From Chromatiaceae bacterium (lineage in GTDB: Bacteria; Pseudomonadota; Gammaproteobacteria; Chromatiales; Chromatiaceae), in NCBI GenBank assembly GCA_022340805.1, contig JAJDNF010000056.1, positions 18,778 through 82,777 of the forward strand: a DNA stretch of 64,000 bases, given 5' to 3'. The notes below the pieces were generated by a model that was not told the origin of the DNA, did not search any database, and saw only the letters and a program-made list of their open reading frames with translations. Position 1 is the stretch's first letter; every line of letters starts with the position of its first letter. Below are positions 7,085-58,029 of this stretch, piece after piece. A program made the translations under genes and the position numbers.

Positions 7085-7745
<661 letters not shown>

Positions 7746-7749
<4 letters not shown>

Positions 7750-8633
7750 GTTTTCGCAGCGGATATGCGGTCCTGGTGGGGCGACCCAATGTCGGCAAGT
7801 CGACACTGTTGAACCGGCTGCTCGGACAAAAACTGGCCATCACCTCGCATAAGCCGCAGACCACACGGCACCGTATCCTCGGCATCCGTTCGCAGGACGA
7901 CGGACAGATCGTGTTCGTGGACACACCGGGGATCCACGATCGCGGCGGCAAGGCGATGAACCAGTATCTCAACCGTACCGCCTACACTGCGCTACAGGAC
8001 GTCGACGTGGCGATTTTCGTGGTCCAGGCGATGGCCTGGATGCCGGAGGACGAACGCGTACTGAATGCCATCGAGCGCGCGGGTGTGCCGGCGATCGTCG
8101 CAGTGAACAAGGTCGACCTGATCTCGCCCAAGGAAAAACTGCTGCCGTTCATGCAGACCCTGGCGAGCCGCCACGCGTTCGTCGAGATGGTCCCGGTATC
8201 GGCGCGCGACGGCGAGAACGCCGAGGTGCTTGCACAAGCGGTCTTGAATCGCCTGCCCGAGGGTGAGCCGATCTTTCCGGATGATCAGCTCAGCGATCGT
8301 TCGGAACGTTTTTTCGCCGCCGAACTTCTGCGCGAGCAGTTGATCCGTCGCTACCACCGCGAGCTACCCTACTCGGTGACTGTCGAGATCGAGCGTTTTG
8401 AAGAGGTGGATGGTCGCTACGACATTGGGGCGGTGATCTGGGTCGAGCGCGAGAGCCAACGCGCGATTCTGCTGGGCAAGGGCGGCGAGGCAATGAAGCA
8501 GGCCGCGACCGCCGCGCGCAAGGCAATGAATGATTTCTTCCAGACCCGTGTGCATCTGGAGGTCTGGATCAAGGTCAAGAAAAGCTGGTCCAGTGACGAG
8601 GCCAGTCTGGTCTCGCTGGGTTACACGGATTGA
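7746..8633 (+). CDS. era: GTPase Era
   Basis: GYAVLVGRPNVGKSTLLNRLLGQKLAITSHKPQTTRHRILGI; KH domain. Confidence 0.97.
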
Positions 8634-40376: not shown

Positions 40377-40535
40377 CGAGATGCAGGGCTTGCCGATCTG
40401 TAAGATATGGGCTGCGGACGGGGCACCACTCGGCGGCCAGCGTCGCGGGTTGCCAGGACCAGGCGACCAATAGGATGGCTCCGGGTATTCGATTACATTT
40501 CCGGGTCGTGGAACAACGCAATAAGGGAACAAGAC

Positions 40536-41987
40536 ATGCCAAAGGCAGACATCGGCCTGATAGGTTTGGCGGTGATGGGGCAAAACCTCGTCCTGAATAT
40601 GGCGGACAACGGCTATCGTGTCGCGGTCTTCAATCGCACCACGAGCAAGGTGGATGAGTTCCTCGAGGGACCGGCGAAGGGCACGACGATCATTGGCACC
40701 CACAGTCTCGAGGCATTGGTGGAGGCGCTTGCGGTGCCGCGCAAGGTCATGTTGATGGTAAAGGCCGGTGAGGTGGTGGATCGCTTCATCGACATGCTGG
40801 TTCCGCTGCTCGAACCGGGTGACGTGATCATCGATGGAGGCAACTCCCATTATCCGGATACCAGTCGGCGGGTCGCCTATCTGCGTGACAAAGGGCTGCG
40901 CTTCATCGGCACCGGGATATCCGGCGGAGAGGAGGGTGCGCGCCACGGGCCTTCCATCATGCCGGGCGGGGATCCGCAGGCATGGCCTTTGGTGAAGGAT
41001 ATCTTCCAGTCCATTGCGGCCAAGGTAGATGGCGAGCCCTGCTGCCAGTGGGTCGGCCAGGATGGGGCCGGGCACTTCGTCAAGATGGTGCACAACGGCA
41101 TCGAGTACGGCGACATGCAACTGATCTGCGAGGCCTATGCGCTGATGGAGTCGGCACTCGAAATGAGTCACGACCAGATGCACGACATCTTTGCTGACTG
41201 GAACAGCGGCGTACTGGATTCCTACCTGATCGAGATCACCGCCGATATCCTGGCGAAGAGGGACGAGGACGGCGCACCGCTGGTGACCAAGATCCTGGAC
41301 ACCGCCGGCCAGAAGGGAACCGGCAAGTGGACCGGTATCAGCGCGCTGGACCTGGGCGTGCCATTGACCCTGATCGGCGAGGCGGTGTTTGCCAGGGTGC
41401 TGTCATCGCTAAAGGACGAGCGCACCCGCGCATCGCGCAGGCTCGGCCCTCGTCCGAAACGGACCGTGCCGGGCGACAGGCAGGACTTGGTTCGCGCGCT
41501 GCACGATGCCTTGTACGCCTCCAAGATCATTTCCTATGCGCAGGGTTTCATGCTGATGCGCGAGGCCGCCAGAGTACAGGGATGGGATCTCAATTATGGC
41601 GAGATCGCGCTGATGTGGCGGGGCGGTTGCATCATACGCAGCAAGTTCCTCGGCAACATCAAGGCGGCATTCGATAGCAACCCGCAGCTGGACAATCTCG
41701 TGCTGGACGATTTTTTCACCACCGCGCTGAAGGATGCCGAGCCAGGCTGGCGTAAGGCGGTCGTGCTGGCGGTCGAGCAGGGGATTGCAACGCCGGCCTT
41801 TGCCTCGGCCCTTGCCTACTTCGATGGTTATCGCAGCGAACGCCTGCCGGCCAATCTGCTGCAGGCGCAGAGGGATTATTTCGGCGCCCACAGCTATGAG
41901 CGCGTGGACAAGCCGCGTGGGGAGTTCTTCCATACGGACTGGACCGGCCACGGCGGCAAGGTGGCATCGACGACTTACGAGGTGTGA
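40536..41987 (+). CDS. gnd: 6-phosphogluconate dehydrogenase, decarboxylating
   Basis: IGLIGLAVMGQNLVLNMADNGYRVAVFNRT; GTGISGGEEGARHGPSIMPGG. Confidence 0.96.
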   Translation: MPKADIGLIGLAVMGQNLVLNMADNGYRVAVFNRTTSKVDEFLEGPAKGTTIIGTHSLEALVEALAVPRKVMLMVKAGEVVDRFIDMLVPLLEPGDVIIDGGNSHYPDTSRRVAYLRDKGLRFIGTGISGGEEGARHGPSIMPGGDPQAWPLVKDIFQSIAAKVDGEPCCQWVGQDGAGHFVKMVHNGIEYGDMQLICEAYALMESALEMSHDQMHDIFADWNSGVLDSYLIEITADILAKRDEDGAPLVTKILDTAGQKGTGKWTGISALDLGVPLTLIGEAVFARVLSSLKDERTRASRRLGPRPKRTVPGDRQDLVRALHDALYASKIISYAQGFMLMREAARVQGWDLNYGEIALMWRGGCIIRSKFLGNIKAAFDSNPQLDNLVLDDFFTTALKDAEPGWRKAVVLAVEQGIATPAFASALAYFDGYRSERLPANLLQAQRDYFGAHSYERVDKPRGEFFHTDWTGHGGKVASTTYEV

Positions 41988-41989
41988 AC

Positions 41990-43480
41990 ATGAACACGCC
42001 AGTCGAGGCATGTACCTTCGTGATCTTTGGTTCCACCGGCAACCTGTCACGCATCAAATTGATGCCCGCCCTCTATCACCTGGAGGCGGCCGGTAAATTG
42101 CCTGAGAACTGCCGCATCCTGGCGACCGGGCGGCGGCCATGGGATCGGGAGCGCTGGCTGCATGAGGCCCGCGGGATGCTGCATGAAGGCATAGTCACCG
42201 GGGTCGATCCCGAGGTGCTCGAACGTTTCGAGCAGCACCTCGATTACTTCCAGGGTGATATATCCGATCCGCAGATGTATGACCAATTGGCTGAACACAT
42301 CGAACATCAGCCGGACTATTCTGCGAATGTGGCCTTCTACCTGTCGATACGTCCGGCAGAGTTTGGCGTGGTCACCGAAAACCTCAGCCGAACAGGTTTG
42401 CTCAAGGAAGAGAGCGGCTGGCGTCGTGTGGTGATCGAGAAGCCCTTTGGCTATGACCTCGAAAGCGCCCAGGCATTGCAGATCCGCCTGTCACGTCATC
42501 TCGACGAGGCCCAGATCTACCGGATCGACCACTACCTGGGGAAGGAGACGGTGCGCAACGTATTGGTGTTCCGCTTCGCCAATGTCATGCTTGAGCCGCT
42601 GTGGAATCGCAACTACATCGATCACGTGCAGATCACCCACTCCGAGCAGCTTGGGGTTGGCAGTCGCGCGCCCTACTACGACGGGGCGGGTGCATTGCGC
42701 GACATGATCCAGAGCCATCTGCTGCAATTGCTGACCCTGGTCGCGATGGAGCCGCCGGTGTCGATGGAGTCGGAATCGCTGCGCGATGAAAAGGTCAAGG
42801 TGCTGAAATCGGTTCGGCCGATTCCACCGAGTGCGGTGCATTCGCAGGCCTTCCGCGCCCAGTACAGTGCCGGGAAAATGGGTGGCAAAAAGGTGAAGGG
42901 CTATCTGGAAGAGGATGGCGTGCCTGCCGACAGCACCACCGAAACCTATGCCGCGCTGAAACTCCACATCGACAATTGGCGATGGCGCGGCGTGCCGTTC
43001 TACCTGCGCACCGGGAAGCGCATGGCCGAGAGCGTCTCCAGCATCATGATCCGCTTTCGACAGCCACCCACGCAGTTTTTCAAGGATACCCATATACAGC
43101 AGATGGAGCGCAACTGGCTGGTGCTCGGCATCCAGCCCTGCGAATGCCTGCGCATCCAGCTTACGGCGAAGGAGCCGGGATTGGAGATGGAGACCCATCA
43201 GGTCAGCCTGGATGCGGGTTTCCGTACCCAGAGCGACGTCTATGCCGATGCCTACGAGGGCCTGCTGCTGGATGTGATGGAAGGCGACCGCTCGCTGTTT
43301 CTGCGCTATGACGAAGTGGAATATGCCTGGCGCATTGTCGATCCGATCTTGCGGGTCTGGTCGGTGGAACGCGACTTCATCACCTCCTATCCAGCCGGTA
43401 GCTGGGGGCCGGAGGAAAGTCGGCGGCTGTTCGAAAAGGATATCGATCGCTGGCGCCACAAGCTTGATGTGGATGAATAA
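41990..43480 (+). CDS. zwf: Glucose-6-phosphate 1-dehydrogenase
   Basis: FVIFGSTGNLSRIKLMPALYHLEAAG; YRIDHYLGKETVRNVLVFRFAN. Confidence 0.96.
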   Translation: MNTPVEACTFVIFGSTGNLSRIKLMPALYHLEAAGKLPENCRILATGRRPWDRERWLHEARGMLHEGIVTGVDPEVLERFEQHLDYFQGDISDPQMYDQLAEHIEHQPDYSANVAFYLSIRPAEFGVVTENLSRTGLLKEESGWRRVVIEKPFGYDLESAQALQIRLSRHLDEAQIYRIDHYLGKETVRNVLVFRFANVMLEPLWNRNYIDHVQITHSEQLGVGSRAPYYDGAGALRDMIQSHLLQLLTLVAMEPPVSMESESLRDEKVKVLKSVRPIPPSAVHSQAFRAQYSAGKMGGKKVKGYLEEDGVPADSTTETYAALKLHIDNWRWRGVPFYLRTGKRMAESVSSIMIRFRQPPTQFFKDTHIQQMERNWLVLGIQPCECLRIQLTAKEPGLEMETHQVSLDAGFRTQSDVYADAYEGLLLDVMEGDRSLFLRYDEVEYAWRIVDPILRVWSVERDFITSYPAGSWGPEESRRLFEKDIDRWRHKLDVDE

Positions 43481-43741
43481 GCATCAGGCTTTGGGCGTGG
43501 CGATTAATGCAGGTTGACGCCCGGGTCGCGGACCTCGTCGCGGCTGACCATATCATCAGCAGTCCGCCGACTCCGATCAGCGGTTAGCGCATTATGCGCA
43601 CCTCGATCGTGCCAGGTACGCCAGACTGTCAGAGCGACATGCGCGGTTCATGCGCAACGCCGGCTTGAAGGGCCAGCGACGAAGCCATCCGCTCAAGGGT
43701 GATTTCCCACAAACGGTTGACCGTCGGCAGACCCGGTAAAA

Positions 43742-44701
43742 TCAGGCGCACTTGTGACAGGCGTATTGTTCCAGTTTGAGCGTATCCCGGGTGAAACTGC
43801 GGATGCCCTCGGCGAGCTTCTCCGTGGCCATCGCGTCTTCGTTCATCTGCCAGCGGAAATTTGACTCGTCGACCGCCAGGGCAGGGATGTTCATCGTGCG
43901 CGCCTGTCCTGGATCGAGCTTCCTTGCGACCTCGCCCCCGGCCTCGCGCAATTCCTGCATCAGCGCGGGTGCGATGGTCAGGTAGTCGCAACCGGCCAAC
44001 TCGAGGATCTCGCTGCTGTTGCGAAAACTCGCCCCCATGACCACGGTTGGGTAGCCGTGACGCTTGTAATAGTTGTAGATGCGGGTGACAGACTTCACGC
44101 CCGGATCCTCGGCTGGGGCATAGCCCTGTACGCCCTCGGCCTTCCTGTACCAGTCCATGATGCGTCCGACAAACGGCGAAATCAGGGTCACGCCGGCCTC
44201 GGCGCTCGCCACAGCCTGGGCGATGCTGAACATCAGCGTGAGATTGCAGTGATACCCACGACGCTCCAGTTGCTCGGCGGCGCGGATGCCCTCCCAGGTC
44301 GAGGCGATCTTGATCAGCACCCGGTCCGGACCTATACCCGCCTGCCCATACAGATCGATCAGGCGCTCAGCGTGGGCGATCGTGGCCTCGGTGTCGAAGG
44401 AATTGCGCGCGTCGACCTCGGAAGACACCCGCCCCGGTATGATCTTCAGGATCTCGACCCCGAAATTGACCGCCAGCTTGTCCATCATGTCGCGCGACAT
44501 CTGCTCGATGGCATTGCTGCGCGAGCGGGCATATGCGATCGCGTCGTCCAGCAGCCCGGCATATTGGACCTGCTGAGCCGCCTTGAGCAGCAGAGAGGGA
44601 TTGGTGGTGGCGTCGGTGGGCGTGTACTGGGCGATGGCGTCGATGTCGCCGGTGTCGGCGACGACCGTGGTCATGCCCTTGAGCTGGTCGAGTTTGTTCA
44701 T
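43742..44701 (-). CDS. tal: Transaldolase
   Basis: [62 protein letters not shown]. Confidence 0.96.
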
Positions 44702-44735: not shown

Positions 44736-45182
44736 TCAGTTGTCGCGCATGATCTGGTCGTCGTACTGCACCTCGAAGTACAACTTGTGTTTGGCCTCTT
44801 CCTGGGCCAGGCCGAGGAACATGGTCTTCAGCTCCGGGTCGTCGATGGCCCTGGCCATGTCGCTGTACAGCCGGTAGGCGGCCTTTTCACGCTTCATCGC
44901 GACGATCAGCGCGTCCTGCAGGCTGATGTCCTCGGCGGGCTCCACATCGACCAGGTAGTCGGCGATCTTCAGGTCCTGCACGTGCTGGTCGGCATTGAGC
45001 AGCCTGTCGCCCAGCTTGACCGATTTGAGCTTGCCCTTGTGGCGCATCTCCTCCTTGCTGAAGCCCAACAGCATCTCCTTCATCCAGGCGCTGTTGGCGC
45101 GCTCGGCGAGATTGCTGTAGAAATCGGCCGCCTGCTGCTCTCGCTCGATGGCGAAGTCGAGGATCTCGTCTACGGTGTGCAT
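44736..45182 (-). CDS. Ferritin-like/rubrerythrin-type diiron protein (no rubredoxin domain)
   Basis: Two E...EExxH half-sites: [16 protein letters not shown] and [17 protein letters not shown]. Confidence 0.85.
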
Positions 45183-45275
45183 TTTTGTCCTCCGTCGCAC
45201 AGACCTGAACTGCAACGTTGCGTTTTCGTCCGGATACAGCCTCCGGCGTGGCGATCCGGCTGATGACAGATCCCG

Positions 45276-47060
45276 TCACCCATCGAGGGTGCCGGTGAGG
45301 AAGCGGTGGATGCCGCGCGCCGCGTGGTGGCCATCCTCGATGGCGCTGATCGCGTCGGCCCGACTGTTGGCGATGTCGCCGCCTACGAACAGCTTGGGCA
45401 GGCCGGTCTGCTGGTATTCGCCGGGGACGAACTTGTTCCACTTGAACTCGATCCGGTCGCGGTACTCGGCGGGGATGAAGTCGAGCTGGCCACCCTGGCC
45501 GATGGCCGCGATGATGCAGTCGTAGGTCTCCTCGTGCATGCGGTCCTCCTGCAGCACGGGTCGCGGCCGGCCGCCCTTGTCGTCGGCGATCATCTCGGCC
45601 TCGCCCCAGACGATCGTCACCTGGCTGGTCGAGGCCGCATTCTTGATCTCGACCGGAATCGCCTGCTGCACCAGCTTACAGCCCTCGGCCTGGGATTCGT
45701 GGATCTCCTCCGGGTCGGCAGGCATGTCCTCGATGCGGCGCCGGTACAGCACCGTGACATCTGCACCCAGCCGGCGCGATACGCGAGCTGCATCCATCGC
45801 GACGTTGCCGCCGCCAATAACCGCAACCTTGCTGCCCACGCCAGGGTCGCGGCCGCTGGCCACGTCGTCGAGGACCTGCAGGCCGGACAGCACGCGTGGG
45901 TGTTCCTCGCCCTGAATGCGCAGCGCGGATGGCTGGTTCAGGCCCACGGCGAGGAACAGCGCGTCGTAGTCCTCGATCAGCTGCCTGAATGGGACGTCGC
46001 GGCCGATATGGGTGTTGAACTTCACCTCCACACCGAGTGAACGGATGTATTCCAGGTCCTTGTCAAGCTGGTCGTCCGGCAAGCGGTAGGAAGGCACGCC
46101 GTAGCGCAGCATGCCGCCGGCACGCGCCTGGGACTCGTACACGGTGACGGCGTAGCCCTGGCGGCGCAGGTAGTAGGCCGCACTCATGCCACCGGGACCG
46201 GCACCGATCACGCCGACCTTCCTGCCATTTTCCACGACCTCGTCGCCGAGGATCTCGCGGTACCTTTCGGCAGGGACGCGGTCGACGATGGCGCGCTTGA
46301 GCCAGCGGATCGCGATCGGGTCGCCCTGGTAGCCCATCACGCAGACGGTCTCGCAGCGGTGCGTGCAGATGCGTCCACAGGTAGAAGAGAAGGGGTTGGT
46401 CTCGTACAGCAGGCGCAGGCCGGCCTCGTAGTCGCGCTGACGCACCGCGCGGATATAGTCGGGGATCGCCATGTGCGCCGGACAGGTGGCCACGCAGATG
46501 CCGCATTCGACGCAGCGGTCGGCCTCGAGCACGGCCTGTTCCTCGGTGTAGCCCTTCATGACCTCGTCGAAGCCCGCGACGCTCTCCTCCGCACCCAGCG
46601 CCTGCATGTCGATGCGCTCGTGCACCAGCAGGTGATAGTCGTCATCGCGCCTGTAGCCGAGGCTGTTCTGGTTCCACGGCATCGCATCGGTACCGGCGGT
46701 GAAGTGGAAGGCATCCGGATCCTCGGTTATCCAGGCGTAGTGATTGCTCATACGCAGCGACCGGGTGGTGCAGATGTCCACGCACAGCGCGCACCAGCAG
46801 CAGCGGCCGTAGTCGAAGCGCGGGCGCAGGCCGCTGTCACCGGAGCGCTGCTCCAAGCCCTCGACCGGCACCATGTCAATCGCGTGATTCTGACAGATCG
46901 TCTCGCAGGTGCCGCAGCCGATGCAGTCCTCGCTGTTCATGTGGAAGCCGCGGTAGCGCGGCGCGCCCGGGCGATCCTCGATCGGGCGCTTCTGGGTGTA
47001 GGGTTTCTCGAACGCCCGCTGCCAGACATAGAAGGGCGAGATCAGGTCTTTCAGACTCAT
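45276..47060 (-). CDS. NuoI-like 2[4Fe-4S] ferredoxin fused to GltD/NfnB-type NAD(P)H flavoprotein
   Basis: CIGCGTCETIC and CCWCALCVDIC near N-terminus; GltD-type CVECGICVATCP..CGRICTHRCETVC; FAD motif VGVIGAGPGGMSAAYYLRRQGYAVTVYE; NAD(P) motif VAVIGGGNVAMDAARVSRRLGADVTVLYRRR. Confidence 0.9.
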   Translation of the reverse strand: MSLKDLISPFYVWQRAFEKPYTQKRPIEDRPGAPRYRGFHMNSEDCIGCGTCETICQNHAIDMVPVEGLEQRSGDSGLRPRFDYGRCCWCALCVDICTTRSLRMSNHYAWITEDPDAFHFTAGTDAMPWNQNSLGYRRDDDYHLLVHERIDMQALGAEESVAGFDEVMKGYTEEQAVLEADRCVECGICVATCPAHMAIPDYIRAVRQRDYEAGLRLLYETNPFSSTCGRICTHRCETVCVMGYQGDPIAIRWLKRAIVDRVPAERYREILGDEVVENGRKVGVIGAGPGGMSAAYYLRRQGYAVTVYESQARAGGMLRYGVPSYRLPDDQLDKDLEYIRSLGVEVKFNTHIGRDVPFRQLIEDYDALFLAVGLNQPSALRIQGEEHPRVLSGLQVLDDVASGRDPGVGSKVAVIGGGNVAMDAARVSRRLGADVTVLYRRRIEDMPADPEEIHESQAEGCKLVQQAIPVEIKNAASTSQVTIVWGEAEMIADDKGGRPRPVLQEDRMHEETYDCIIAAIGQGGQLDFIPAEYRDRIEFKWNKFVPGEYQQTGLPKLFVGGDIANSRADAISAIEDGHHAARGIHRFLTGTLDG

Positions 47061-47064: not shown

Positions 47065-48207
47065 CTACCTCTCGATCTCCGGCGGATAGGTGTGCAGGGA
47101 CACCATCAGACCGGCGATGTCGGCAATGTTGGTCCCCACGGCGAGCTTTTCCATCAATGCGATCGCGTGGGTGTAACTGGGGCCGCGCACGTGCACCCGG
47201 CGCACATATTCGCTGCCGTCCGTGACCAGGTAATAGCCGTATTCGCCGCGCGTGCACTCGGCCTTGGCGTAGGTCTCGCCGGCCGGCACCTGCCAGTGCA
47301 GCACGTTCGGCATCCTGGCCTGGAAGGGGCCGTCCTTGGGCATGCGGTCCAGGCACTGGCGCAGCATGCGGATCCCCTGGTGCATCTCCTGATAGCGCAC
47401 CCATGCGCGTGCGTAGGTATCGGACTCGGTGGCGGTGATCAGGTCGAATTCGAGCTGGTCGTAGACCAGGTAGGGGGCATCCTTGCGCAGGTCGCGGGCG
47501 AAGCCGGCGGCGCGCTGGTTTGGGCCGGTGATGCCGTAGGGGTCGACCATCTCCCGCGGGATATGGCCCAGGCCCTTGGTGCGCGCCTTGAACACGACGT
47601 TGTTGAACAGCACCTTTTCCACATCGCGCAGCAGCTTCTCCACGCGGTTCAGCACCTCGTGGCAGCGACCCTCGAAGCCTTCCGGCAGGCGCCCGCGCAC
47701 GCCGCCCGGGACTATGTACATATGGTATACGCGCGCCCCGGTCATCTCCTCGAACAGGTCGAGGATGTAGTCACGGTGGGTCACGGTCCACTGGTAGACG
47801 GTACTCTGGCCAAATGCCGCACCAATGCCGCCCAGCCACATCAGATAACTCGCCAGGCGCATCAGCTCCAGGTTCAGGGTGCGGATCCACTCGGCGCGTT
47901 CGGGTGACTGGATCCCGGCCAGCTCCTCCACCACTGCGGCATACAGGTACTCGTTGAAGGTGGGCTCGGGCACCGCGATGCGGCAGACGATCGGGAAGTT
48001 CTGGATGAAGGTGCGCCGCTCCATCAGCTTCTCGAAGCCGCGGTGCAGGTAACCGACATGGGTCTTGCAATCCACCACCTCGTCGCCGCAGGTGGTCAGT
48101 TCCAGAGACATGTTGCCGGTGATGCCCGGGTGCTGCGGTCCCTGCCAGAGCTTGAGGTACTTGCCGGAGCTCAGATCTACCGGGGGATTGGGTTCGAACA
48201 CGATCAC
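47065..48207 (-). CDS. NuoD-like / group-4-hydrogenase-related large subunit without NiFe ligands
   Basis: LWQGPQHPGITGNMSLELTTCGDEVVDCKTHVGYLHRGFEKLMERRTF..; no RxCGxC and no C-terminal DPCxxC. Confidence 0.88.
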   Translation of the reverse strand: MIVFEPNPPVDLSSGKYLKLWQGPQHPGITGNMSLELTTCGDEVVDCKTHVGYLHRGFEKLMERRTFIQNFPIVCRIAVPEPTFNEYLYAAVVEELAGIQSPERAEWIRTLNLELMRLASYLMWLGGIGAAFGQSTVYQWTVTHRDYILDLFEEMTGARVYHMYIVPGGVRGRLPEGFEGRCHEVLNRVEKLLRDVEKVLFNNVVFKARTKGLGHIPREMVDPYGITGPNQRAAGFARDLRKDAPYLVYDQLEFDLITATESDTYARAWVRYQEMHQGIRMLRQCLDRMPKDGPFQARMPNVLHWQVPAGETYAKAECTRGEYGYYLVTDGSEYVRRVHVRGPSYTHAIALMEKLAVGTNIADIAGLMVSLHTYPPEIER

Positions 48208-48767
48208 TGCCCCCCGGACGACGGCTCGTCCGTGTGCGTGGGATAGAGCAGGCCCTTCATGTGCTCACGCGGATCTTCGGTACCGCGCCCTTCGCGACTG
48301 TAGAAGCGCTCAAGACTGAACGCGGCGGTGTCGAATTCCTTGCGCATGGGTGGAATCTGGTCCCAGCCCTCCAGGCAGAAGTCCTCGTCCAGGCGCGGGC
48401 TGCCGGGGAAGCGGATGCCGTACATCTCGCGCAGTTCGCGCTGGTAGGTGGCGGCCTGGGCCCACAGCCCGTGGATAGACTGCATCTCGGCATTGTCACG
48501 CTCGAGGTCGACGTGCATACCCAGGCTGTGCCTGGCATCGTAATTGTGCAGCATGTATGTGAGCGTGAAGATGCCTTTCTCGATCCAGTCGATGTTCGTC
48601 AGGAACGCCAGGTGGGTGTAGCCGGCATCGTCGCGCAGCTCGCGCAGCAGCCGCACCGCCTGTTCCTTGGGCACCTTGAAGAAGGTCAGATCGGCCTTCT
48701 GCTCGTGGATCTCGCTGATCGCAAAGTTCTTACCGAATCGCTGCAGCAGCTCGATTGGGTTAGCCAT
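48204..48767 (-). CDS. NuoC-like 30-kDa subunit
   Basis: ATYQRELREMYGIRFPGSPRLDEDFCLEGW matches the NuoC signature region. Confidence 0.85.
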   Translation of the reverse strand: MANPIELLQRFGKNFAISEIHEQKADLTFFKVPKEQAVRLLRELRDDAGYTHLAFLTNIDWIEKGIFTLTYMLHNYDARHSLGMHVDLERDNAEMQSIHGLWAQAATYQRELREMYGIRFPGSPRLDEDFCLEGWDQIPPMRKEFDTAAFSLERFYSREGRGTEDPREHMKGLLYPTHTDEPSSGGQ

Positions 48768-48772
48768 GGTCG

Positions 48773-49405
48773 TCACCAGTTGTAGTCCGGCATATTCCAG
48801 TCCTTGATCACGCGTTTCTGATTGGCCTTGTACCAATCGAAGTTTTCCACGTAGCGGTTGGCGCCGTCCGCGCGCCCCTCCATGATCTTCTTCTTCAGCT
48901 CCAGCACGCCGGCCATCAGCACCTCCGGGCGCGGCATGCAGCCGGTGATGTACAGGTCCACCGGCAGGTATTCGTCGAATTTGTTGACCGTGTTGTAGCT
49001 GTCCCAGTACATGCCACCGTTGATCGGGCAGATGCCCAGACAGACCACGAACTTGGGACCCTGCATCTGTTCGTAGGAGCGGATGATGCGCTTGAGCGTC
49101 TTGACCGAGGCGTAACCGCCGATGATGAACACCGAGGACTGGCGTGGGGTGGGGCGCATCTGCACACCCATCCGGTAGGCGTCAAAGCGTGCAGTCATCA
49201 GCGGGTTCAGCTCCACTGCGCCGCAGCCGGTACCGAACGCCAGCAGCCACAGCGAATTGGCGCGCACCCAGTTGACGAATTTCTCCACCACCGCGACCGG
49301 GTAGGGCTCGTAGGGCACCGGCCTGGCGTCCGAGAACAGATCCCGGTCCTCGGCGCTCAAGCCCTCGTTGAGCAACGGGCCGAGGGCGTATTTTTGCGTA
49401 TCCAT
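48773..49405 (-). CDS. NuoB-like (PSST) subunit with altered cysteine pattern
   Basis: NSLWLLAFGTGCGAVELNPLMTARFDAYRMGVQMRPTPRQSSVFIIGG; KFVVCLGICPINGGMYW; PVDLYITGCMPRPE. Confidence 0.88.
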   Translation of the reverse strand: MDTQKYALGPLLNEGLSAEDRDLFSDARPVPYEPYPVAVVEKFVNWVRANSLWLLAFGTGCGAVELNPLMTARFDAYRMGVQMRPTPRQSSVFIIGGYASVKTLKRIIRSYEQMQGPKFVVCLGICPINGGMYWDSYNTVNKFDEYLPVDLYITGCMPRPEVLMAGVLELKKKIMEGRADGANRYVENFDWYKANQKRVIKDWNMPDYNW

Positions 49406-49426: not shown

Positions 49427-50350
49427 TCAGGGCAACAGGACGGCCTGGGTATAGCCGATGGCAGCGATCCCGATCAGGGTCGGGTAACGCAGGAAGAAGC
49501 GGATGGACTGGTCCACGCGGAAGCGCGGAAAGGCCGCGCCCACCACTACTGCCACCATGTATATGGCCCAGGTTTTGATCACAAGTTCCACCAGGTTGGT
49601 GGCGCCGCCGAAGAACAGGTCCATGAACAGGATCAGCTTGGCACCGGCGAACACGGCGCGGTTCATGGTCATCATCGCCAGATAGGAGCTGTGATATTCG
49701 GTCGGCGGGCCTATCGGAATCTCATTGGGCGCCATGGTGACGTCAAACGGCGAATAGCCGGTCATGCCCAGGAAGGCGATCATTGCCGCGATCACAGCCA
49801 GCGGATTGGTGAACAGGGTCCAGTTCAGGATGCCGCCCTGCTGGGCGGCGACGATGTCGTTGATCGACAGGCTGCCGTATTGCACCACGATGGCGATGAT
49901 CGCCAGCGCGAAGGGCACTTCGTAGGCGGTCATCTGGCCGAGGCCGCGGGCCACGCCAATGGCACTGAAGGGATGGCCGCTCTCGCCAGCGCCGATGGCC
50001 ATGCCGAGCTGGCCGAAGAACATGAAATACATCGCCAGAAGCAGATCACCGGCCGAATTGAAATTGCTGAACATCTCGCTGCCATACAGCACGGGCACGA
50101 AGGCCAGCGTGCCGATGCCGCCGGCCAGCCGAAATACCGGGCCGAGGTAGAACATCGCGCCATGACTGACCGCGGTGCGCTTGCCCAGGTTCTTCAGCAG
50201 GTCGATGAAGGGCTGATAGACCGGGATGCCGATGCGCCCCTGCACCTTGGCCAGGGTGCGCGCGACGATGCCCGACAACAGCATGCCGTACAGCCCGACG
50301 ATCGTCAGGTTGATCAGAAAGTAGCCGATCCGAACGGGCCAGTCTTGCAT
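49427..50350 (-). CDS. NuoH-like membrane subunit
   Basis: GRIGIPVYQPFIDLLKNLGKRTAVSHG; PFDVTMAPNEIPIGPPTEYHSSYLAMM. Confidence 0.9.
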   Translation of the reverse strand: MQDWPVRIGYFLINLTIVGLYGMLLSGIVARTLAKVQGRIGIPVYQPFIDLLKNLGKRTAVSHGAMFYLGPVFRLAGGIGTLAFVPVLYGSEMFSNFNSAGDLLLAMYFMFFGQLGMAIGAGESGHPFSAIGVARGLGQMTAYEVPFALAIIAIVVQYGSLSINDIVAAQQGGILNWTLFTNPLAVIAAMIAFLGMTGYSPFDVTMAPNEIPIGPPTEYHSSYLAMMTMNRAVFAGAKLILFMDLFFGGATNLVELVIKTWAIYMVAVVVGAAFPRFRVDQSIRFFLRYPTLIGIAAIGYTQAVLLP

Positions 50351-53300
50351 CAGGAAGGGCCTCCGACCGCAAAATACAGCGTCACGACATACAGCAGGAT
50401 GTACAGCGCATAGGTCTGGCCATTGCCGGTGTAGAAAATCCTCAGACCGGTCCCCATCGAATGGCTCCACTCCGCGACGCCGTTCCAGAAGGCGGTGGCC
50501 CGGGGGAGCACCAGGAAACCCAGCGCACGGTCGTAGAAGCTATAGAAATCGTAGGCGTAGTGGGTCGTCTCAGGGCTTTCCGGACGCTCCGCGGCAAACA
50601 CGATGTTGAACTGCTTGACCCGTTGCACCCGCATGAAACGCGACAGGACGAGCAGCATCAGCAGCGGCACCATGAATACCGCGCCCACCACGTTGATGAC
50701 CAGGAAGCCGTCCCAGTAGCCCAGGCCGCTCTGCATCAGGGAGCCGTGCATGACCAGGGTCTGCGGCAGGTGGCTCGCCATGATCGCGGCGATCGGATTG
50801 ACCAGCCAGTTCGGCTGGACCGACAAGGCCAGGATAACGAACACCAGCAGCAGCTGAGGGATCAGCAGCGCCAGAGGCGCGTCGCGCAGATCCTTGTGGA
50901 TGCGTTTGCGCTGGCCGAGAAAGACCGTGTGGATCATGCGGAAAAGGTACAGGAACGCCACCGCGCTGGCGAAGAAGGCCAGTCCGGTCTGCCAGTACCA
51001 GCCCTTCTCGAGCAGCGCATTGAGCATCAGCCACTTGCCGCCGAACCCGGTCAGCGGCGGTACGCCGGAAAGCGCGATGATGGCGATGAGCATCCCGAAA
51101 AAGCTGACCGGCATGTTGTGGATCAGGCCGCCCATTTTGTACATCTCACGCTGGCCAACGCGCAGGATGATGCCGGCCGCAACCAGGAACAACAGGCCCT
51201 TGAACAACAGGTGATTGACCGCCAGGTAGCCGGCCGCGACCCAGCCCAGATGGCTGCCGGTGGCCAGCGCGGCGACCATGTAGCCGACCTGCCCCATGCT
51301 CGAATAGGCGAGCATTTTCTTCAGGTCCTCCTGGAATATCGCCATCAGGGCGCCGAAGAAGGCGGTCAGCAGACCGATCCAGCTGAGCAGGTACATGACC
51401 ACATCGCTGCCGCCACCCTTGAGACCCAGACTGATCACGCTCAGGAACAGGCCGAAGACGGCGGCCTTGCCGAGTACCGCAGCAAGCATGGCGGAAAAGT
51501 CGTCATCGGCCTCGGCGTAGGCGCCGGGCAGCCACACGTGCACACCCAGCGCGCCGGCCTTGGTCAGGAAACCCAGCAGCAGCAGGCCGAGCACCGCGGC
51601 GGCGCCGTCTTTGACATTGGCCAGGTCCGCCAGCGCGATGGATTGGGTCTCGGCATAGGCAAGGCCGAAGCCGGCCAGCAGCAGGAAGGCCGCGGCCAGT
51701 GAGAAGATCAGGTAAGCGAGCGTGTACGGCGCGGCGTCGCGGCCCATGCACAGCAGCAGGTAGGAACTGACGGTCAGGAACTCCCAGGCCAGAAAGAACT
51801 CAAGGCTGGTGTCGGCCTGCAGCAGGCCGCCAAAGGACAGCAGCAGCATGGTCAGCAGCGCATAGTAGCCACGCCGGGTATCGCCCCGATACAGGCCGGC
51901 AGCGGTCATCAGCAGGCCGCCACCAAGCAGCATCAGGCCGAACAGACCGGTCAGCCCTTCCAGGACAGGCACGACCCGATAGGCATAGTAGGCGACGATG
52001 GCCAGCGTGATCAGGCCCTTGGGGCGAGTGGGCAGGCCATCGATTGAAACCAGCGCGATGCCGGCATAAGCGGGCAGCAGCACCCACAGGGTATCGAGCC
52101 CCAGGCTGTCGGCGGCATAGTGGCCGGCGGCCAGCAGGCCCAGGACCGCCAACACGATCGGCAACAGCTGCGCCACGGCGGGCGCGGGCGTTAGCTGCAC
52201 GCCTGGCGACATCGCCCGACCGAACCAGCGGAACAGGTAGACCGCCTCCAGCAGCGAGCCGACCAGGATCAATGCCACCCAGGAGACCATGCCACCGGCC
52301 GAGAGCTGCATGACCAGCTCCCACTTGGCCCAGAAGCCGGGGAAGGGCGGCAGGCCGGCCAGCGCGGCGAGCAGCAGGCCGAGAATGGCCAGCAGCAGCG
52401 GGTTGGCACGCAGCCCGCGCCAGTCCTCAACCGCGTTACGCTGCAGCGCGCCGGACAGCCAGAACAGCCCGGCCTTGGCCAACAGGTGATTCAGGAACAG
52501 GCCGCCGATCACCAGCGGCATCGCGTCTTCGCGATGCAACTGGGTCAGCAGCACCATGGCCAGGGCCAGCAGGCTCACCTGAGCAATCGATGAATAGCCG
52601 AGCAGGCGGCGAACCTTGTTCTGCTTCAGACCGATGATGTTGGAGGCCAGGAAGGTGGTGCCGGCGACGACCACCAGGGCCGGCAGAAACGGCTCGATCA
52701 GTGGCAGGATCTTGTACAGCGCAAACAGGGCGCCGGCCGATACCCCGACCGAGACCATCGCTGCAATGCCGGTGGGCGCGCTCTCGTACACGTCCAGGCC
52801 CCAGCCGTTGGCTGGATAGGGCTTCAGTTCGATGACCACACCGGCGACCAGCAGGCTCATCGCAACCATGCCCAGCGGGCCCTGGACCTGGGCGATCTGC
52901 TCACGCATGCCGTCAATGTTGAGGGTGCCGGTCAGGTAATAGAACAACATCACGCCCAGCAGGAAGAAGGTCGAGGCCAGCGAAGTGGCGATGATGTACT
53001 TGAAGCCGGCCGTGAGCGTCGCGGCGTTGCGTTCCAGGCTCAGCAGGCCGTATGTGGCGATCGCCGTAATCTCGATGAAGATGAACAGGTTGAACAGGTC
53101 GCGGGTCATGATCATGCCGTCCACGCCCATGCTCAGGATCAGGAACACCGACATCGCCGCGGCCCGACCGCGCAGCAGTCCACCGAGATACCAGGCACCC
53201 AGCAGCGACGCCAGATTGACCCCGGCAACGAAGAACGCCTCTTCCAGTCCCAGGCGCAGGTTGATGGAAAAGGGCGGCGCTATGCCGGCGGTCTGGATCT

Positions 53301-53487
53301 GCTGCGCAGCCGCGCCGTTGACCAGCCAGAGCAGCCACAGCAGGGGCAGAACGGCCTGATAGATGATGGTCAGGTTGAACAGTCCGCGGCTCAGCGCCGG
53401 ACTGCTGCGCTCGATCAGCGGCAGCAGGAAGCCGACGCCGAGCGCGACGATGATCAGATTCAGGGGATTGCCGAGGGCCTCTACCAT
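50350..53487 (-). CDS. Fused double Mrp/Nuo-type proton antiporter (two antiporter modules in one polypeptide)
   Basis: 1045 aa continuous frame. Module 1: LFNLFIFIEITAIATYGLLSLERN, ELKPYPANGWGLDVYESAPTGIAAM. Module 2: FFLAWEFLTVSSYLLLCMGRD, FLTKAGALGVHVWLPGAYAEADDDFSAMLAAVLGKAAVFGLF. Confidence 0.9.
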   Translation of the reverse strand: MVEALGNPLNLIIVALGVGFLLPLIERSSPALSRGLFNLTIIYQAVLPLLWLLWLVNGAAAQQIQTAGIAPPFSINLRLGLEEAFFVAGVNLASLLGAWYLGGLLRGRAAAMSVFLILSMGVDGMIMTRDLFNLFIFIEITAIATYGLLSLERNAATLTAGFKYIIATSLASTFFLLGVMLFYYLTGTLNIDGMREQIAQVQGPLGMVAMSLLVAGVVIELKPYPANGWGLDVYESAPTGIAAMVSVGVSAGALFALYKILPLIEPFLPALVVVAGTTFLASNIIGLKQNKVRRLLGYSSIAQVSLLALAMVLLTQLHREDAMPLVIGGLFLNHLLAKAGLFWLSGALQRNAVEDWRGLRANPLLLAILGLLLAALAGLPPFPGFWAKWELVMQLSAGGMVSWVALILVGSLLEAVYLFRWFGRAMSPGVQLTPAPAVAQLLPIVLAVLGLLAAGHYAADSLGLDTLWVLLPAYAGIALVSIDGLPTRPKGLITLAIVAYYAYRVVPVLEGLTGLFGLMLLGGGLLMTAAGLYRGDTRRGYYALLTMLLLSFGGLLQADTSLEFFLAWEFLTVSSYLLLCMGRDAAPYTLAYLIFSLAAAFLLLAGFGLAYAETQSIALADLANVKDGAAAVLGLLLLGFLTKAGALGVHVWLPGAYAEADDDFSAMLAAVLGKAAVFGLFLSVISLGLKGGGSDVVMYLLSWIGLLTAFFGALMAIFQEDLKKMLAYSSMGQVGYMVAALATGSHLGWVAAGYLAVNHLLFKGLLFLVAAGIILRVGQREMYKMGGLIHNMPVSFFGMLIAIIALSGVPPLTGFGGKWLMLNALLEKGWYWQTGLAFFASAVAFLYLFRMIHTVFLGQRKRIHKDLRDAPLALLIPQLLLVFVILALSVQPNWLVNPIAAIMASHLPQTLVMHGSLMQSGLGYWDGFLVINVVGAVFMVPLLMLLVLSRFMRVQRVKQFNIVFAAERPESPETTHYAYDFYSFYDRALGFLVLPRATAFWNGVAEWSHSMGTGLRIFYTGNGQTYALYILLYVVTLYFAVGGPS

Positions 53488-53852
53488 TTCGAGTCCGTGC
53501 AGTCATCAATCGACAGGGTCTTCTTGTGGGTGTGGATCTGCACGGCATAGGCCAGCATGACGGCGGTAATGCCCAGGCCGATCACGATCGCAGTGAGTAC
53601 CAGCGCGGAGGGCACCGGGTCGACCACGGCAGTCAGCGCGGTGGCCCGGTCCACGGCGGCATCGATTATTGGTGCAGTACCGCCACGGATATAGCCGAGC
53701 GAGACCATGATCATGTGGATGCCGGTATCGATCAGCGAGAAGCCGATGACCATGCGGATGATGTTCTTGCGCACCAGCATGCCCCACAGGCCGATCAGCA
53801 GCAGCCCGAAACCCGTGCCCAGGGTGATGGTCGACAATGGCAGTTCGATCAT
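53481..53852 (-). CDS. MrpC/MnhC (NuoK-like) subunit
   Basis: LLLIGLWGMLVRKNIIRMVIGFSLIDTGIHMIMVSLGY; DPVPSALVLTAIVIGLGITAVMLAYAVQ. Confidence 0.88.
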   Translation of the reverse strand: MIELPLSTITLGTGFGLLLIGLWGMLVRKNIIRMVIGFSLIDTGIHMIMVSLGYIRGGTAPIIDAAVDRATALTAVVDPVPSALVLTAIVIGLGITAVMLAYAVQIHTHKKTLSIDDCTDSKW

Positions 53853-54541
53853 GAGGCCTCACCTTTGAAGCGTTCGAGAACCGCGCTCAGCTCGGCGCCC
53901 ACCTTCAGGCCGATGAAGGTATAGATGACCGGGATGGCACCGGCACTGAACAGCCTGCCGTAGTCGCCTAGCGGCAGGACGCGGTTGTCCAGGAACCCGC
54001 CGGCCAGGACCAGGCCAAGTACCCCCACCAGGACATAGCCGAAACCGGACAGGGATTCGGTGATGATCAGCAGCGCGTGGCGCAACTTGGATCGCGGCAG
54101 GGCCAGGAACAGCAGCAGCGTGGCGGAGGCGATAACCGCACCGCCCTGGAAACCGCCACCGGGGCTCAGATGGCCGTTGACGAAGATGTACGCCCCAAAC
54201 AGCAGCACGATCGGAAACAGGTATTGCACGGCGGTTTCGACGATCTCGCTGGCCGGCGTCGGCGGTTCCGCCTTTTGATCCAGCCCCCCCATGGTGAGCA
54301 GCAGGCCGACCGCCACCGCGGACAGAAACAGCACCGTGACTTCACCCAGGGTGTCCAGGCCTCGATAGGTCACCACCACCGCAGTAACCAGGTTGGGGGC
54401 ACCTACCTCGTCGGGACCCTGTGCCACGTAGTGCGTGGCGATCGGCGTCAGTGCGGTCCTTTCGGTGTAGTTGGCCGCGACCTCCCAGAACATCATCGCC
54501 AGAAGGAACAGGGCCAGTACGATCAGCAGACGCTTCGCCAT
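53849..54541 (-). CDS. MbhE/F-like, MnhB-domain subunit
   Basis: VTAVVVTYRGLDTLGEVTVLFLSAVAVGLLL; NGHLSPGGGFQGGAVIASATLLLFLAL. Confidence 0.88.
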   Translation of the reverse strand: MAKRLLIVLALFLLAMMFWEVAANYTERTALTPIATHYVAQGPDEVGAPNLVTAVVVTYRGLDTLGEVTVLFLSAVAVGLLLTMGGLDQKAEPPTPASEIVETAVQYLFPIVLLFGAYIFVNGHLSPGGGFQGGAVIASATLLLFLALPRSKLRHALLIITESLSGFGYVLVGVLGLVLAGGFLDNRVLPLGDYGRLFSAGAIPVIYTFIGLKVGAELSAVLERFKGEAS

Positions 54542-54552
54542 GTCAGTGAGCC

Positions 54553-54888
54553 CTATGCGTCGCCAGCGCGGTTCTCCGCCTCTTCCAGGCGGTCGATGAC
54601 GGTCTTGTCGCTGCGCGGTATGCGCCTGGCGTGCGAGGCGCGCGCCAGCGCATGCGATGAGACCGGGTTGGTCAACAGCACGAAAAACACCAGCAGCAAC
54701 AGTTTGCCGGTCCAGGCCGGGTGATAAACACATAGGCCGAGCAATACCAGAATGGTGCCAAGCGTGGATGCCTTGGTCCCGGTTTGAATGCGGTTGTAAC
54801 TGTCAGGCATGCGCAGCACGCCGAGACCGGCCGCAAACAGGAACACCGAACCGGCCAGGATCACCAGACTGCCGATCAGTTCAGTCAT
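54553..54888 (-). CDS. MrpG/MnhG subunit (alternative upstream starts at 54897 or 54927)
   Basis: GVLRMPDSYNRIQTGTKASTLGTILVLLGL; LLTNPVSSHALARASHARR. Confidence 0.85.
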   Translation of the reverse strand: MTELIGSLVILAGSVFLFAAGLGVLRMPDSYNRIQTGTKASTLGTILVLLGLCVYHPAWTGKLLLLVFFVLLTNPVSSHALARASHARRIPRSDKTVIDRLEEAENRAGDA

Positions 54889-55141
54889 CCTTTTCATGCT
54901 CCTGGCGTCGGGTGCGATTGATCGCATAAAGAAAGATCGCGGTCGAAAGGCCGCTGCCGATCGAGGCCTCGGTCATGGCCACGTCCGGGGCGGACAGGAT
55001 CACGTAGGTGACCGCGGCGAACAGGCTGGTGAGTCCCGCGGCGATCACCGCGCTGACCACGTTGCCCATGCTGACCGCGGCGACGGCGCCGAACAGAATC
55101 CCGGCACAGATCAATAGCGTGAGCAGGGTCATGGGGTCCAT
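54881..55141 (-). CDS. MbhD-like (DUF4040) subunit
   Basis: GNVVSAVIAAGLTSLFAAVTYVILSAPDVAMTEASIGSGLSTAIFLYAI. Confidence 0.82.
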   Translation of the reverse strand: MDPMTLLTLLICAGILFGAVAAVSMGNVVSAVIAAGLTSLFAAVTYVILSAPDVAMTEASIGSGLSTAIFLYAINRTRRQEHEKDD

Positions 55142-55401
55142 CAGAGTCCCTTTTCCAGGTAGCGGGCGACGGCCAGGACGCCGAGGAAACTCAACAGACC
55201 GTAGACGATGGCAACGTCCACGTAGATGAAGCGCCCCGAGATGTGAGCGAGCAGTACGATAATCGACAGGGACACGACGGTAAGCAGATCCACCGCAATG
55301 ACACGGTCGGTTTCGGTCTCACCCTTGACCAGCCGGATCACCCCGAACAGGATGGCGAAACCAATCAGCACCATTGCCAGATTCAGGATCTGCTCAGCCA
55401 T
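55141..55401 (-). CDS. MrpF/MnhF subunit
   Basis: GETETDRVIAVDLLTVVSLSIIVLLAHISGRFIYVDVAIVYGLLSFLGVLAVARYLEKG. Confidence 0.85.
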   Translation of the reverse strand: MAEQILNLAMVLIGFAILFGVIRLVKGETETDRVIAVDLLTVVSLSIIVLLAHISGRFIYVDVAIVYGLLSFLGVLAVARYLEKGL

Positions 55402-55894
55402 AGATCACACTCAGGTGCTTTTCGAAACGCGCGGCAATGGCCCGGGTGGCGCCTTGTGGATCGTCGCTCTGAACATCGATCCAGTGCACGAACAGCGAGT
55501 CGCCGTCGATGTCCACCACCAGGGTGCCCGGCGTGAGCGTAATCGAGTTGGCCAACACCATGCGCCCGGTGCGCGATTTCAGTTTGGTCTTGATCTCGAC
55601 GATGCCCGGATGGATGTCGATGCGCGGCGAAAACACCAGACGCGCCACGTTCAGATTGGCGCGCAGCAGTTCCGCGGAGAACACCAACAGGTACAGGACG
55701 TAATGGACAAGTACCTGTGGTGACAGCCTTACCTCGGCGTAGGCGCTGCTAAAGCCGGCCAGACCCAGGCTCAGCAGGGTCGCGAGCAACACCCCAGTTA
55801 GCACCACCTGACTGTCCAGTGAGGCGTTGGCCAGCAGCCAGATGGCCAGTAGGGTCACCCAGAGATTGATCACCACCCTTGCCTTGCTTACCAC
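55394..55894 (-). CDS. MrpE/MnhE subunit
   Basis: SPRIDIHPGIVEIKTKLKSRTGRMVLANSITLTPGTLVVDIDGDSLFVHWIDV. Confidence 0.88.
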   Translation of the reverse strand: MVSKARVVINLWVTLLAIWLLANASLDSQVVLTGVLLATLLSLGLAGFSSAYAEVRLSPQVLVHYVLYLLVFSAELLRANLNVARLVFSPRIDIHPGIVEIKTKLKSRTGRMVLANSITLTPGTLVVDIDGDSLFVHWIDVQSDDPQGATRAIAARFEKHLSVIYG

Positions 55895-56228: not shown

Positions 56229-56690
56229 ATGATGACGGCAAGTCTGGTCATGGATCCTCATCCGTCGGTATTGCACGCCGGTGACACGGTGGGGCAGGCG
56301 GTAAAATTGATCATGGAGCACCGCTATCGCAACCTTCCGGTCGTCGACGAACAAGGCCGCTACCTGGGCGTGTTCGGCATCAATACCCTGCTGCGCATGG
56401 TGCTGCCACCGGCAGTGGTCGTGGAGAAAGGTCTGACCACCGCACCATTCGTCACCGACGGGCTGCATGATCTGTACCTCCGCCTGGCTGCGGTGGAAGA
56501 CAGACCGATCCTCGAGTTCATCAACGAGGATGCCGCGGTCGTAACCTCCGATACGCCGCTGGTGGAAAGCCTGCTGGTCCTGTATCGCACCCGGACCAGC
56601 GTGCCTGTCGTGGAAGGCGAGGAACGCCGACTGGTGGGGATGATTTCGTACTGGGACGTAGGCTCGCATATCCTCGAGCAGGGACACTGA
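56229..56690 (+). CDS. Tandem CBS-domain protein
   Basis: VMDPHPSVLHAGDTVGQAVKLIMEHRYRNLPVVDEQGRYLGVFG; second CBS ..LLVLYRTRTSVPVVEGEERRLVGMISYWD. Confidence 0.88.
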   Translation: MMTASLVMDPHPSVLHAGDTVGQAVKLIMEHRYRNLPVVDEQGRYLGVFGINTLLRMVLPPAVVVEKGLTTAPFVTDGLHDLYLRLAAVEDRPILEFINEDAAVVTSDTPLVESLLVLYRTRTSVPVVEGEERRLVGMISYWDVGSHILEQGH

Positions 56691-56691
56691 G

Positions 56692-58029
56692 ATGCACTCA
56701 GAAGACGCAGTACCCATGGTCTTCGGTTGGGATGCGATGTGGTTTGCCGGCATACTTTTTGTCGTCACCTATGTGCTCATCATGAGCGAAAAGATCAATC
56801 GCGCGATCGTTGCGACCAGCGCCGCCGCACTGATGGTGTTGGCCGGGGTGATCAGCGAGCAGAGGGCCATCGATGGCGTGGATTTCAATACCATCGGCCT
56901 GCTCACCGGCATGATGGCGATCGTCGCCATTACCCGCCGATCCGGCGTGTTTCAGTATCTCGCCGTATGGGCAACGAAGAAGGTCAACGCCCAGCCCTGG
57001 GGCATCCTGGTGATGCTTGCGCTGGTCACGGCGTTCTTGTCGGCGCTGCTGGACAATGTAACCACGGTACTGCTCATCGCCCCGGTCACGCTGCTGATCA
57101 CCGAGGCGCTGGGTGTAAAGGCCTACCCATACCTGTTCGCCGAAATCTTCGCCTCGAACATCGGTGGGGCGGCCACGCTGATCGGCGACCCGCCCAACAT
57201 CATGATCGGCTCCGCCGTGGGCCTGAGTTTCAACGATTTCGTGATTCACATGCTCCCCGCTGCGTCACTGGTCATGGTGGTCAGCATGCTGCCAATCTAC
57301 TGGGTATGGGGGAGGCATCTGCAGGCCAGCGAAGAGAACCGCCGCCGCGTCATGAACTACAGGGAACGCGATGCAATCACCGACCGTGTCCTGCTGATCA
57401 AATCCCTGAGCGTGCTGGCGCTGGTGATCCTGGGTTTCGCGATGGCCCATACGATCGGCAAGCAGCCTTCGACCATTGCCCTTGCAGGCGCGGCCCTGCT
57501 GCTGTTGCTGGACAACCTGGGCAGAAAACCCGCCAAACAGACCGAATCCGTGCACGCCACGTTCTCAGAGGTCGAATGGGTCACGATCTTCTTTTTCATC
57601 GGCCTGTTCGTCGTGGTCCATGGCCTGGAGAGTACCGGCCTGCTCACTCTGGTGGCTGGGGAAATCCTGACCTTGACCGGCGGCGATCTCACTGTCACCG
57701 CAATGGCTATCCTGTGGGGGTCGGCGATCGCCTCGGCGGTGGTGGACAATATCCCGTTCGTGGCCACCACCATCCCGCTGATCAAATCGATGGCCCCGAC
57801 CTTCGGCGGTGCGGAACATCTCATGCCGCTGTGGTGGTCCCTGGCGCTGGGCGCCTGCCTGGGCGGCAATGGCTCCCTGGTCGGCGCCAGCGCGAATCTG
57901 ATCGTCGCCGGCTTTGCCGAACGCTCCCGGCAACCCATCGGTTTTATCAGCTTCACACTGGCCGCGTTTCCGCTGATGATCCTCGGCATTGGAGTCGCAA
58001 GTGTGTACGTCTATCTGCGCTACCTATGA
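56692..58029 (+). CDS. ArsB/NhaD-type ion permease
   Basis: FLSALLDNVTTVLLIAPVTLLITEALG; ASNIGGAATLIGDPPNIMIGSAVGLSFNDF; about 12 TM segments. Confidence 0.88.
   Translation: MHSEDAVPMVFGWDAMWFAGILFVVTYVLIMSEKINRAIVATSAAALMVLAGVISEQRAIDGVDFNTIGLLTGMMAIVAITRRSGVFQYLAVWATKKVNAQPWGILVMLALVTAFLSALLDNVTTVLLIAPVTLLITEALGVKAYPYLFAEIFASNIGGAATLIGDPPNIMIGSAVGLSFNDFVIHMLPAASLVMVVSMLPIYWVWGRHLQASEENRRRVMNYRERDAITDRVLLIKSLSVLALVILGFAMAHTIGKQPSTIALAGAALLLLLDNLGRKPAKQTESVHATFSEVEWVTIFFFIGLFVVVHGLESTGLLTLVAGEILTLTGGDLTVTAMAILWGSAIASAVVDNIPFVATTIPLIKSMAPTFGGAEHLMPLWWSLALGACLGGNGSLVGASANLIVAGFAERSRQPIGFISFTLAAFPLMILGIGVASVYVYLRYL

Follow-up and report, generated by a model that had tools for sequence, protein, structure and literature searches.

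A NuoI-type ferredoxin fused to an NfnB/GltD-like flavoprotein in a predicted MBS-type complex of a Chromatiaceae bacterium

Introduction

Which complex does a NuoI-like ferredoxin serve when it is fused to a GltD/NfnB-type flavoprotein, and between which partners would it carry electrons? The question is raised by a 64,000-nucleotide stretch of DNA from a Chromatiaceae bacterium (the window), in which an uninterrupted open reading frame (ORF) of 594 amino acids on the minus strand (45276-47060; the plus strand of this interval is not the gene) adjoins genes for NuoBCD-like proteins. A preliminary description of the locus had taken the product as a soluble-type NAD(P)H oxidoreductase hard-wired to the NuoBCD arm, where canonical complex I uses NuoEFG. 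We propose, with a probability of roughly one half, that the product of the locus is an MBS-type NADP(H):sulfane-sulfur oxidoreductase which sits in the membrane and translocates ions, and in which the ferredoxin-docking subunit MbsN is covalently joined to an NfnB/GltD-type flavoprotein. Our literature search, subscription journals being outside its coverage, found no description of such a fusion as part of MBS-like complexes in sulfur oxidisers, and no measured activity or function was found for any fusion-bearing complex.

Domain structure of the fusion protein

That ferredoxin and flavoprotein form one chain is borne out by the uninterrupted frame, by domain searches and by recurrence across assemblies. 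An open frame of 594 codons has a chance probability of about 1e-7 at the local composition, and the GC3 of the gene is 88%. A chance ORF or an assembly error joining two ORFs, which had been named as a possible source of the fusion, is out, since the intact fusion occurs in dozens of independent assemblies and its motif cysteines are invariant among the full-length relatives compared. Pfam and NCBIfam place a NuoI-type 4Fe-4S dicluster domain at the N-terminus (two dicluster matches in Pfam), followed by the Fer4_20 double-cluster domain (residues 163-263) and the FAD/NAD(P) domains (Pyr_redox_2, residues 281-577), and the double-cluster domain together with FAD and NAD(P) folds is what characterizes the GltD/NfnB superfamily. 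The motifs quoted in the preliminary description were all found at their expected places: CIGCGTCETIC at residues 46-56, CCWCALCVDIC at 87-97, CVECGICVATCP at 183-194, CGRICTHRCETVC at 228-240, the FAD motif GAGPGG at 286-291 and the NAD(P) motif GGGNVAMDAARVSRRLGADVTVLYRRR at 416-442, with YRR at 439-441.

The two-module architecture is already catalogued, without a functional name. The NCBIfam model NF010590/PRK13984 ('putative oxidoreductase') matches the window protein over its full length (residues 2-589 on model positions 7-607), with a score of 680 bits that lies below the curated cut-off of 946. Among 14 control genomes, Thermotoga maritima alone gave a match over the full length; its fusion has the same architecture and passes the cut-off. 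In the passages searched of a report on the T. maritima MBX, ferredoxin is assumed as the donor and the fusion is not mentioned (PMC9431562). The flavin domain of the window protein is far from those of the other Pseudomonadota members of NF010590/PRK13984.

The earlier prediction of four Fe-S clusters agrees with the conservation of the motif cysteines, since all 17, nine in the NuoI part and eight in the GltD part, are invariant among 31 full-length relatives. The pattern fits clusters N6a and N6b of NuoI plus the distal and proximal clusters of NfnB. By alignment with NfnB and StnC, Cys183, 186, 189 and 240 are assigned as probable ligands of the distal cluster, and Cys193, 232 and 236 together with Lys255 as those of the proximal one; for the two NuoI clusters we propose eight of the nine cysteines within residues 46-97. 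Lys255, the predicted fourth ligand of the FAD-proximal cluster, is invariant in the fusion relatives compared. It resembles StnC, where K170 is the corresponding ligand (PMC10482914), whereas NfnB has a Glu at this cluster. An AlphaFold model with a mean pLDDT of 76, poor at residues 1-39 and 106-138, finds its best fold match in NADP(H)-bound NfnI-L (TM 0.84 by target), a support that extends to the NfnB-like part but not to the placing of the ferredoxin part.

NfnB/NfnL, StnC and GltD share with the window fusion the Fer4_20 double-cluster domain, the FAD and NAD(P) Rossmann domains and the YRR motif. The first cluster motif of the window fusion (CxxCxxC) is, however, two residues shorter than in Pfu NfnI-L, and no gene for the partners of these proteins (NfnA, StnAB or GltB) was found in the window cluster. 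Electron bifurcation is disfavoured because NfnA and StnAB are lacking in the cluster and the Lys at the proximal cluster is StnC-like; the flavin of StnC is non-bifurcating (PMC10482914). A related Fe-S flavoprotein of sulfur metabolism is DsrL, whose forms DsrL-1 and DsrL-2 show the same split into NAD(H) and NADP(H) types by YRR (PMC7596348). While DsrL is a partner of DsrAB with a C-terminal ferredoxin of its own, the ferredoxin of the window fusion is NuoI-like, N-terminal and part of a predicted membrane ion pump.

Gene cluster and relation to MBS

MBS is known from a hyperthermophilic archaeon, where it reduces sulfur with electrons from ferredoxin, and it has been proposed as a link in the evolution of complex I. 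The gene cluster of the window appears, from its subunits and site residues, to encode a complex of this MBS (MBX) type and not a variant of complex I. Upstream of the fusion gene, and like it on the minus strand, lie the genes for NuoD/MbsL-like (47065-48207), NuoC/MbsK-like (48204-48836) and NuoB/MbsJ-like (48773-49405) subunits and for a NuoH/MbsM-like membrane anchor (49427-50470), whose true start is probably some 40 codons inside the ORF. They are preceded by a gene for two antiporter-like subunits in one chain of 1045 aa (an MbsH-MbsH' fusion, 50350-53487), an MrpC/NuoK-like (MbsG-like) subunit (53481-53852) and an MbsE-like protein with MbhE and MnhB domains (53849-54733; homology from residue 65 of the listed ORF). 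An MrpG-like (54553-54927) and an MbhD-domain subunit (54881-55141), an MrpF-like (55141-55401) and an MrpE-like subunit (55394-55894) complete the set, all on the same strand. With a NuoBCDHI-like arm, two antiporter-like subunits and the Mrp EFG/MbhD/MnhB/MrpC components, the MBS/MBX subunit set is present in 12 genes, H and H' being fused.

The Pyrococcus furiosus MBS (formerly MBX; PDB 6u8y; PMC7684303) matches in subunit set, in its Mrp-type module and in having two antiporter-like subunits, although there MbsH and MbsH' are not one chain. In a search of the PDB, 6u8y was the best solved-structure match of NuoB (210 bits versus 124 for complex I), NuoD (317 versus 228) and NuoH (160 versus 67 for MBH and 63 for complex I), and the best among the NuoI-type matches of the NuoI part (71 versus 46 for complex I); it also came first for the MnhB-type (E) subunit (172 bits) and for both halves of the 1045-aa chain. 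Of the proposal in the preliminary description, the linkage of the fusion to NuoBCD-like genes is upheld across genomes, but the idea of a complex I with NuoEFG replaced is not, as the set is of the MBS (MBX) type. No NuoEFG dehydrogenase module was found in the window cluster. A separate canonical complex I is encoded on contig C32 of the same genome, next to the only NuoF-type match of the genome.

In complex I the N2 cluster sits on adjacent cysteines, whereas in MBS three cysteines hold the proximal cluster, whose free iron does the sulfur chemistry, and the equivalents of Nqo4 H38 and Y87 are absent (PMC7684303). The window NuoB has the predicted three-Cys site (GTGCGAVE, LGICPING, TGCMPRPE) and not the CC pair of complex I, and the single-Cys pattern GCG replaces CC in 30 of the 31 MBS-like NuoB sequences aligned. 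The exception is L083, where NuoB (7378-7977) reads TGCC with the adjacent Cys of complex I present, while NuoD still lacks the quinone residues. The H38/Y87 equivalents are missing from the window NuoD and from every MBS-like row that covers this region of the alignment, yet the genome's own canonical complex I (L063) keeps CC, H and Y. The window NuoD also lacks the NiFe cysteines, and a group 4 NiFe hydrogenase is rejected on this ground. P. furiosus MBS likewise combines a three-Cys site with the absence of quinone and NiFe sites; its non-catalytic cysteines, C25 of MbsJ and C85/C385 of MbsL, have no counterpart in the window version. Since the MbsN part does not stand alone, as the ferredoxin-fed MbsN of MBS does, but is fused to an NAD(P)H flavoprotein, the complex is best called MBS-type with a variant donor module, and not MBS itself: ferredoxin is the donor of MBS, NADPH the one predicted here.

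Distribution and link to sulfur oxidisers

The fusion was found in 16 of the 369 gammaproteobacterial genomes sampled and in five genomes outside the Gammaproteobacteria (sample of 399 Pseudomonadota). In many assemblies it stands beside NuoBCDH-like and Mrp genes, as in the window. Gene order, compared in four named genome contigs and related genomes of which some contigs end early, is conserved as MrpE, F, G, MbhD, MnhB, MrpC, antiporter-like subunits, NuoH, B, C, D and fusion, with a ferritin-like gene next in most cases; in L082 and in L037, the second copy, a contig edge is near and only part of the set is visible. Two lineages can be distinguished. In type A (the window, L027-L032, L071, L081, L083-L087 and others) the antiporter-like subunits form one chain of about 1045 aa, while in type B they are mostly separate genes. 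The window genome holds a second copy, of type B, on contig C13.

All 16 fusion-bearing gammaproteobacterial genomes carry dsrA, compared to 118 of the 369 overall (hypergeometric 6e-9, uncorrected for kinship; 14 family codes). The five fusion genomes elsewhere in the Pseudomonadota carry it without exception. Among eight additional relatives of the same family, dsrA was present in five; two of the dsrA-negative ones are only 80-83% complete, and the 98% complete G010, with the fusion but no dsrA match, looks like a true exception to the co-occurrence. RuBisCO occurs in 12 of the 16 fusion genomes versus 88 of 102 dsrA-bearing genomes without the fusion, and a link to autotrophy as such is rejected because there is no enrichment beyond what dsrA explains. 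The hosts look like sulfur oxidisers, since the genome's own DsrL-like protein (G000:C97; L064, L006) has no YRR and carries a long insertion in the NAD(P) site. Such a long insertion without YRR is found in the NAD(H)-preferring DsrL-1A of sulfur oxidisers (PMC7596348).

Cofactor types and exchange of the flavin domain

A preference for NADPH had been predicted from the Arg pair at the end of the NAD(P) motif, and published work on related proteins strengthens this prediction. The YRR position binds the 2'-phosphate in the structure of NfnB, and kinetics tie YRR to the NADP(H)-specific DsrL-2 as opposed to the NAD(H)-using DsrL-1 (PMC7596348). In the window protein YRR sits where beta-2 of the NAD(P) fold ends, as in the NADP(H)-specific subgroup. 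It is present in the nine sequences of the window clade (including L027, L029, L030, L041, L081 and L083), whereas in the other 37 fusions, the genome's second copy among them, the motif ends in ALED or a similar sequence and carries an insertion of six residues. We therefore predict the window clade to be of the NADP(H) type and the ALED-type fusions to be of the NAD(H) type; what would be new is the occurrence of two cofactor types, NADPH and NADH, of one complex.

The window fusion and that of L031 are 63% identical in the NuoI part and 64% in Fer4_20 but only 35% in the flavin domain, no higher than to unrelated flavoproteins of the same genome (33-35%). In the tree of the N-terminal clusters and in that of NuoB plus NuoD, the window clade and type A fall together, separate from type B, each time at 100/100; the former nests the window clade inside type A and the latter places it as sister. 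In the flavin-domain tree, type A and type B domains intermix and the window clade is set apart from them. A constraint of this tree to the type A grouping was rejected by the AU test (p = 0.00025, an indicative value since the type A group was corrected after the N-terminal tree to include L084 and L085). We read this as probable exchange of the nicotinamide module between lineages: either the window clade gained an NADPH module, or an NADH module passed from the unfused type to its sister lineage. No donor of the window-type flavin domain was found in the flavin-domain tree, where background rows sit on long branches.

Proposed function

The subunit set, the site residues, the YRR motif, the gene linkage and the co-occurrence with dsrA can be read from the sequences; from there we infer electron order, substrate, coupling ion and direction. 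Electrons would pass from NADPH via FAD to the Lys/Cys-ligated [4Fe-4S] cluster and the distal [4Fe-4S] cluster of the GltD part, then through the two NuoI clusters to the site-differentiated three-Cys [4Fe-4S] cluster in NuoB, where the S-S bond of polysulfide or of an organic polysulfane would be cleaved. NuoH and the paired pumps of the MbsH-MbsH' chain may transmit the energy to the Na+/H+ module of Mrp type. For the NADPH-type version we think the likelier direction is that NADPH drives the reduction of stored or poly-sulfur, for instance in anoxic conditions, where the NADPH could come from the oxidative pentose phosphate pathway. The driving force from NADPH to sulfur is much below that of the ferredoxin-to-sulfur reaction of MBS, therefore pumping would be marginal, which counts against this explanation. 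The reaction of MBS amounts to 41 kJ per 2e- (PMC7684303).

Since the hosts look like sulfur oxidisers, the reverse direction fits too, although we regard it as unlikely. Here the ion gradient would drive electrons from sulfide or persulfide via the three-Cys cluster to NADP+, or to NAD+ in the ALED-type, in a short reverse electron transport supplying reductant for biosynthesis. The presence of dsrA and mostly also RuBisCO (12/16) in the hosts is in line with this, and NAD(P)+ reduction would be cheap, S/HS- and NAD(P)+ being close in potential. Yet RuBisCO is not enriched among the fusion genomes once dsrA is taken into account, and to our knowledge MBS is known only as a reductase. For the related DsrL of sulfur oxidisers, NAD(P)+ was proposed as the acceptor, but NADPH is normally kept reduced, so that an NADP-type module favours NADPH oxidation (PMC7596348).

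Still less probable is an enzyme with MBS site chemistry whose substrate is a protein or low-molecular-weight sulfane, such as DsrC trisulfide or glutathione/CoA persulfide, instead of inorganic polysulfide. The tight co-occurrence with dsrA and the altered cluster-side MbsL residues, with both MbsL cysteines gone in the window, would suit such a substrate, and MBS itself reduces the organic trisulfide DMTS (PMC7684303). However, MBS has a hydrophobic chamber, and none of the genes in the window cluster was recognised as coding for DsrC. An alternative complex I, that is, an NADPH:quinone oxidoreductase with the fusion in place of NuoEFG, is very improbable, because despite the homology of NuoBCDHI to complex I and the CC in NuoB of L083, the tandem-Cys motif and both quinone headgroup residues kept in the genome's own complex I are missing, and MBS is the closer solved relative for each subunit tested.

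If the locus encodes the MBS-type NADP(H):sulfane-sulfur oxidoreductase that we prefer, sulfur oxidisers may be able to pass electrons straight from NAD(P)H to sulfur or back, with an ion gradient built up or consumed in the process. Through an NAD(P)H-wired MBS, found widely in sulfur bacteria with dsr genes, sulfur, NAD(P)H and an ion gradient would be connected by a further path that needs no quinone. The use of stored sulfur by sulfur oxidisers when oxygen is absent, or their gain of NADPH from sulfide, would become directly testable. The same core complex with NADPH- or NADH-type flavin modules would also be a natural experiment on cofactor choice. Going further, we tentatively consider, although the odds are clearly against it, that these complexes form an undescribed class of ion-pumping NAD(P)H:sulfane-sulfur oxidoreductases with interchangeable nicotinamide modules in sulfur-oxidising Pseudomonadota, with NADPH-type and NADH-type versions in one bacterium. 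If this were true, one version could reduce sulfur and the other NAD+ within a single bacterium, linking sulfur, both nicotinamide pools and an ion gradient without quinone.

Neighbouring genes and rearrangements

Directly after the fusion gene lies a ferritin-like/rubrerythrin-like gene on the minus strand (44736-45215), which is kept in most loci of both lineages (26-91% identity); its product perhaps protects against oxygen or peroxide. The genes gnd, zwf and tal adjoin the cluster at 40407-44701. A zwf-gnd pair also occurs beside the cluster in L027 and tal-zwf-gnd in L028/L041, but neither in L030 nor in L083. This neighbourhood would suit NADPH supply, but it is local, confined to close relatives. 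Upstream of the cluster (56229-58029) a CBS-domain protein and an NhaD-like transporter are encoded, and their homologues (55% and 64%) adjoin the cluster of L031 as well.

One locus carries a window-type flavin domain with a single in-frame TGA (L092, G810:C1:137593-138531), possibly due to decay, a boundary effect or a sequencing error. In L028 (4886-8286; the same stretch in L041) a tandem partial duplication lies inside the cluster. A NuoH (87%) and a truncated NuoB (94%) close to those of the window come first; after them stand a second antiporter C-terminus, another NuoH (59%) and another NuoB (74%). This second NuoB shares its site motif, GFGTGCGAIEMR, with the ALED-type relatives, which looks like the outcome of recombination between two clusters.
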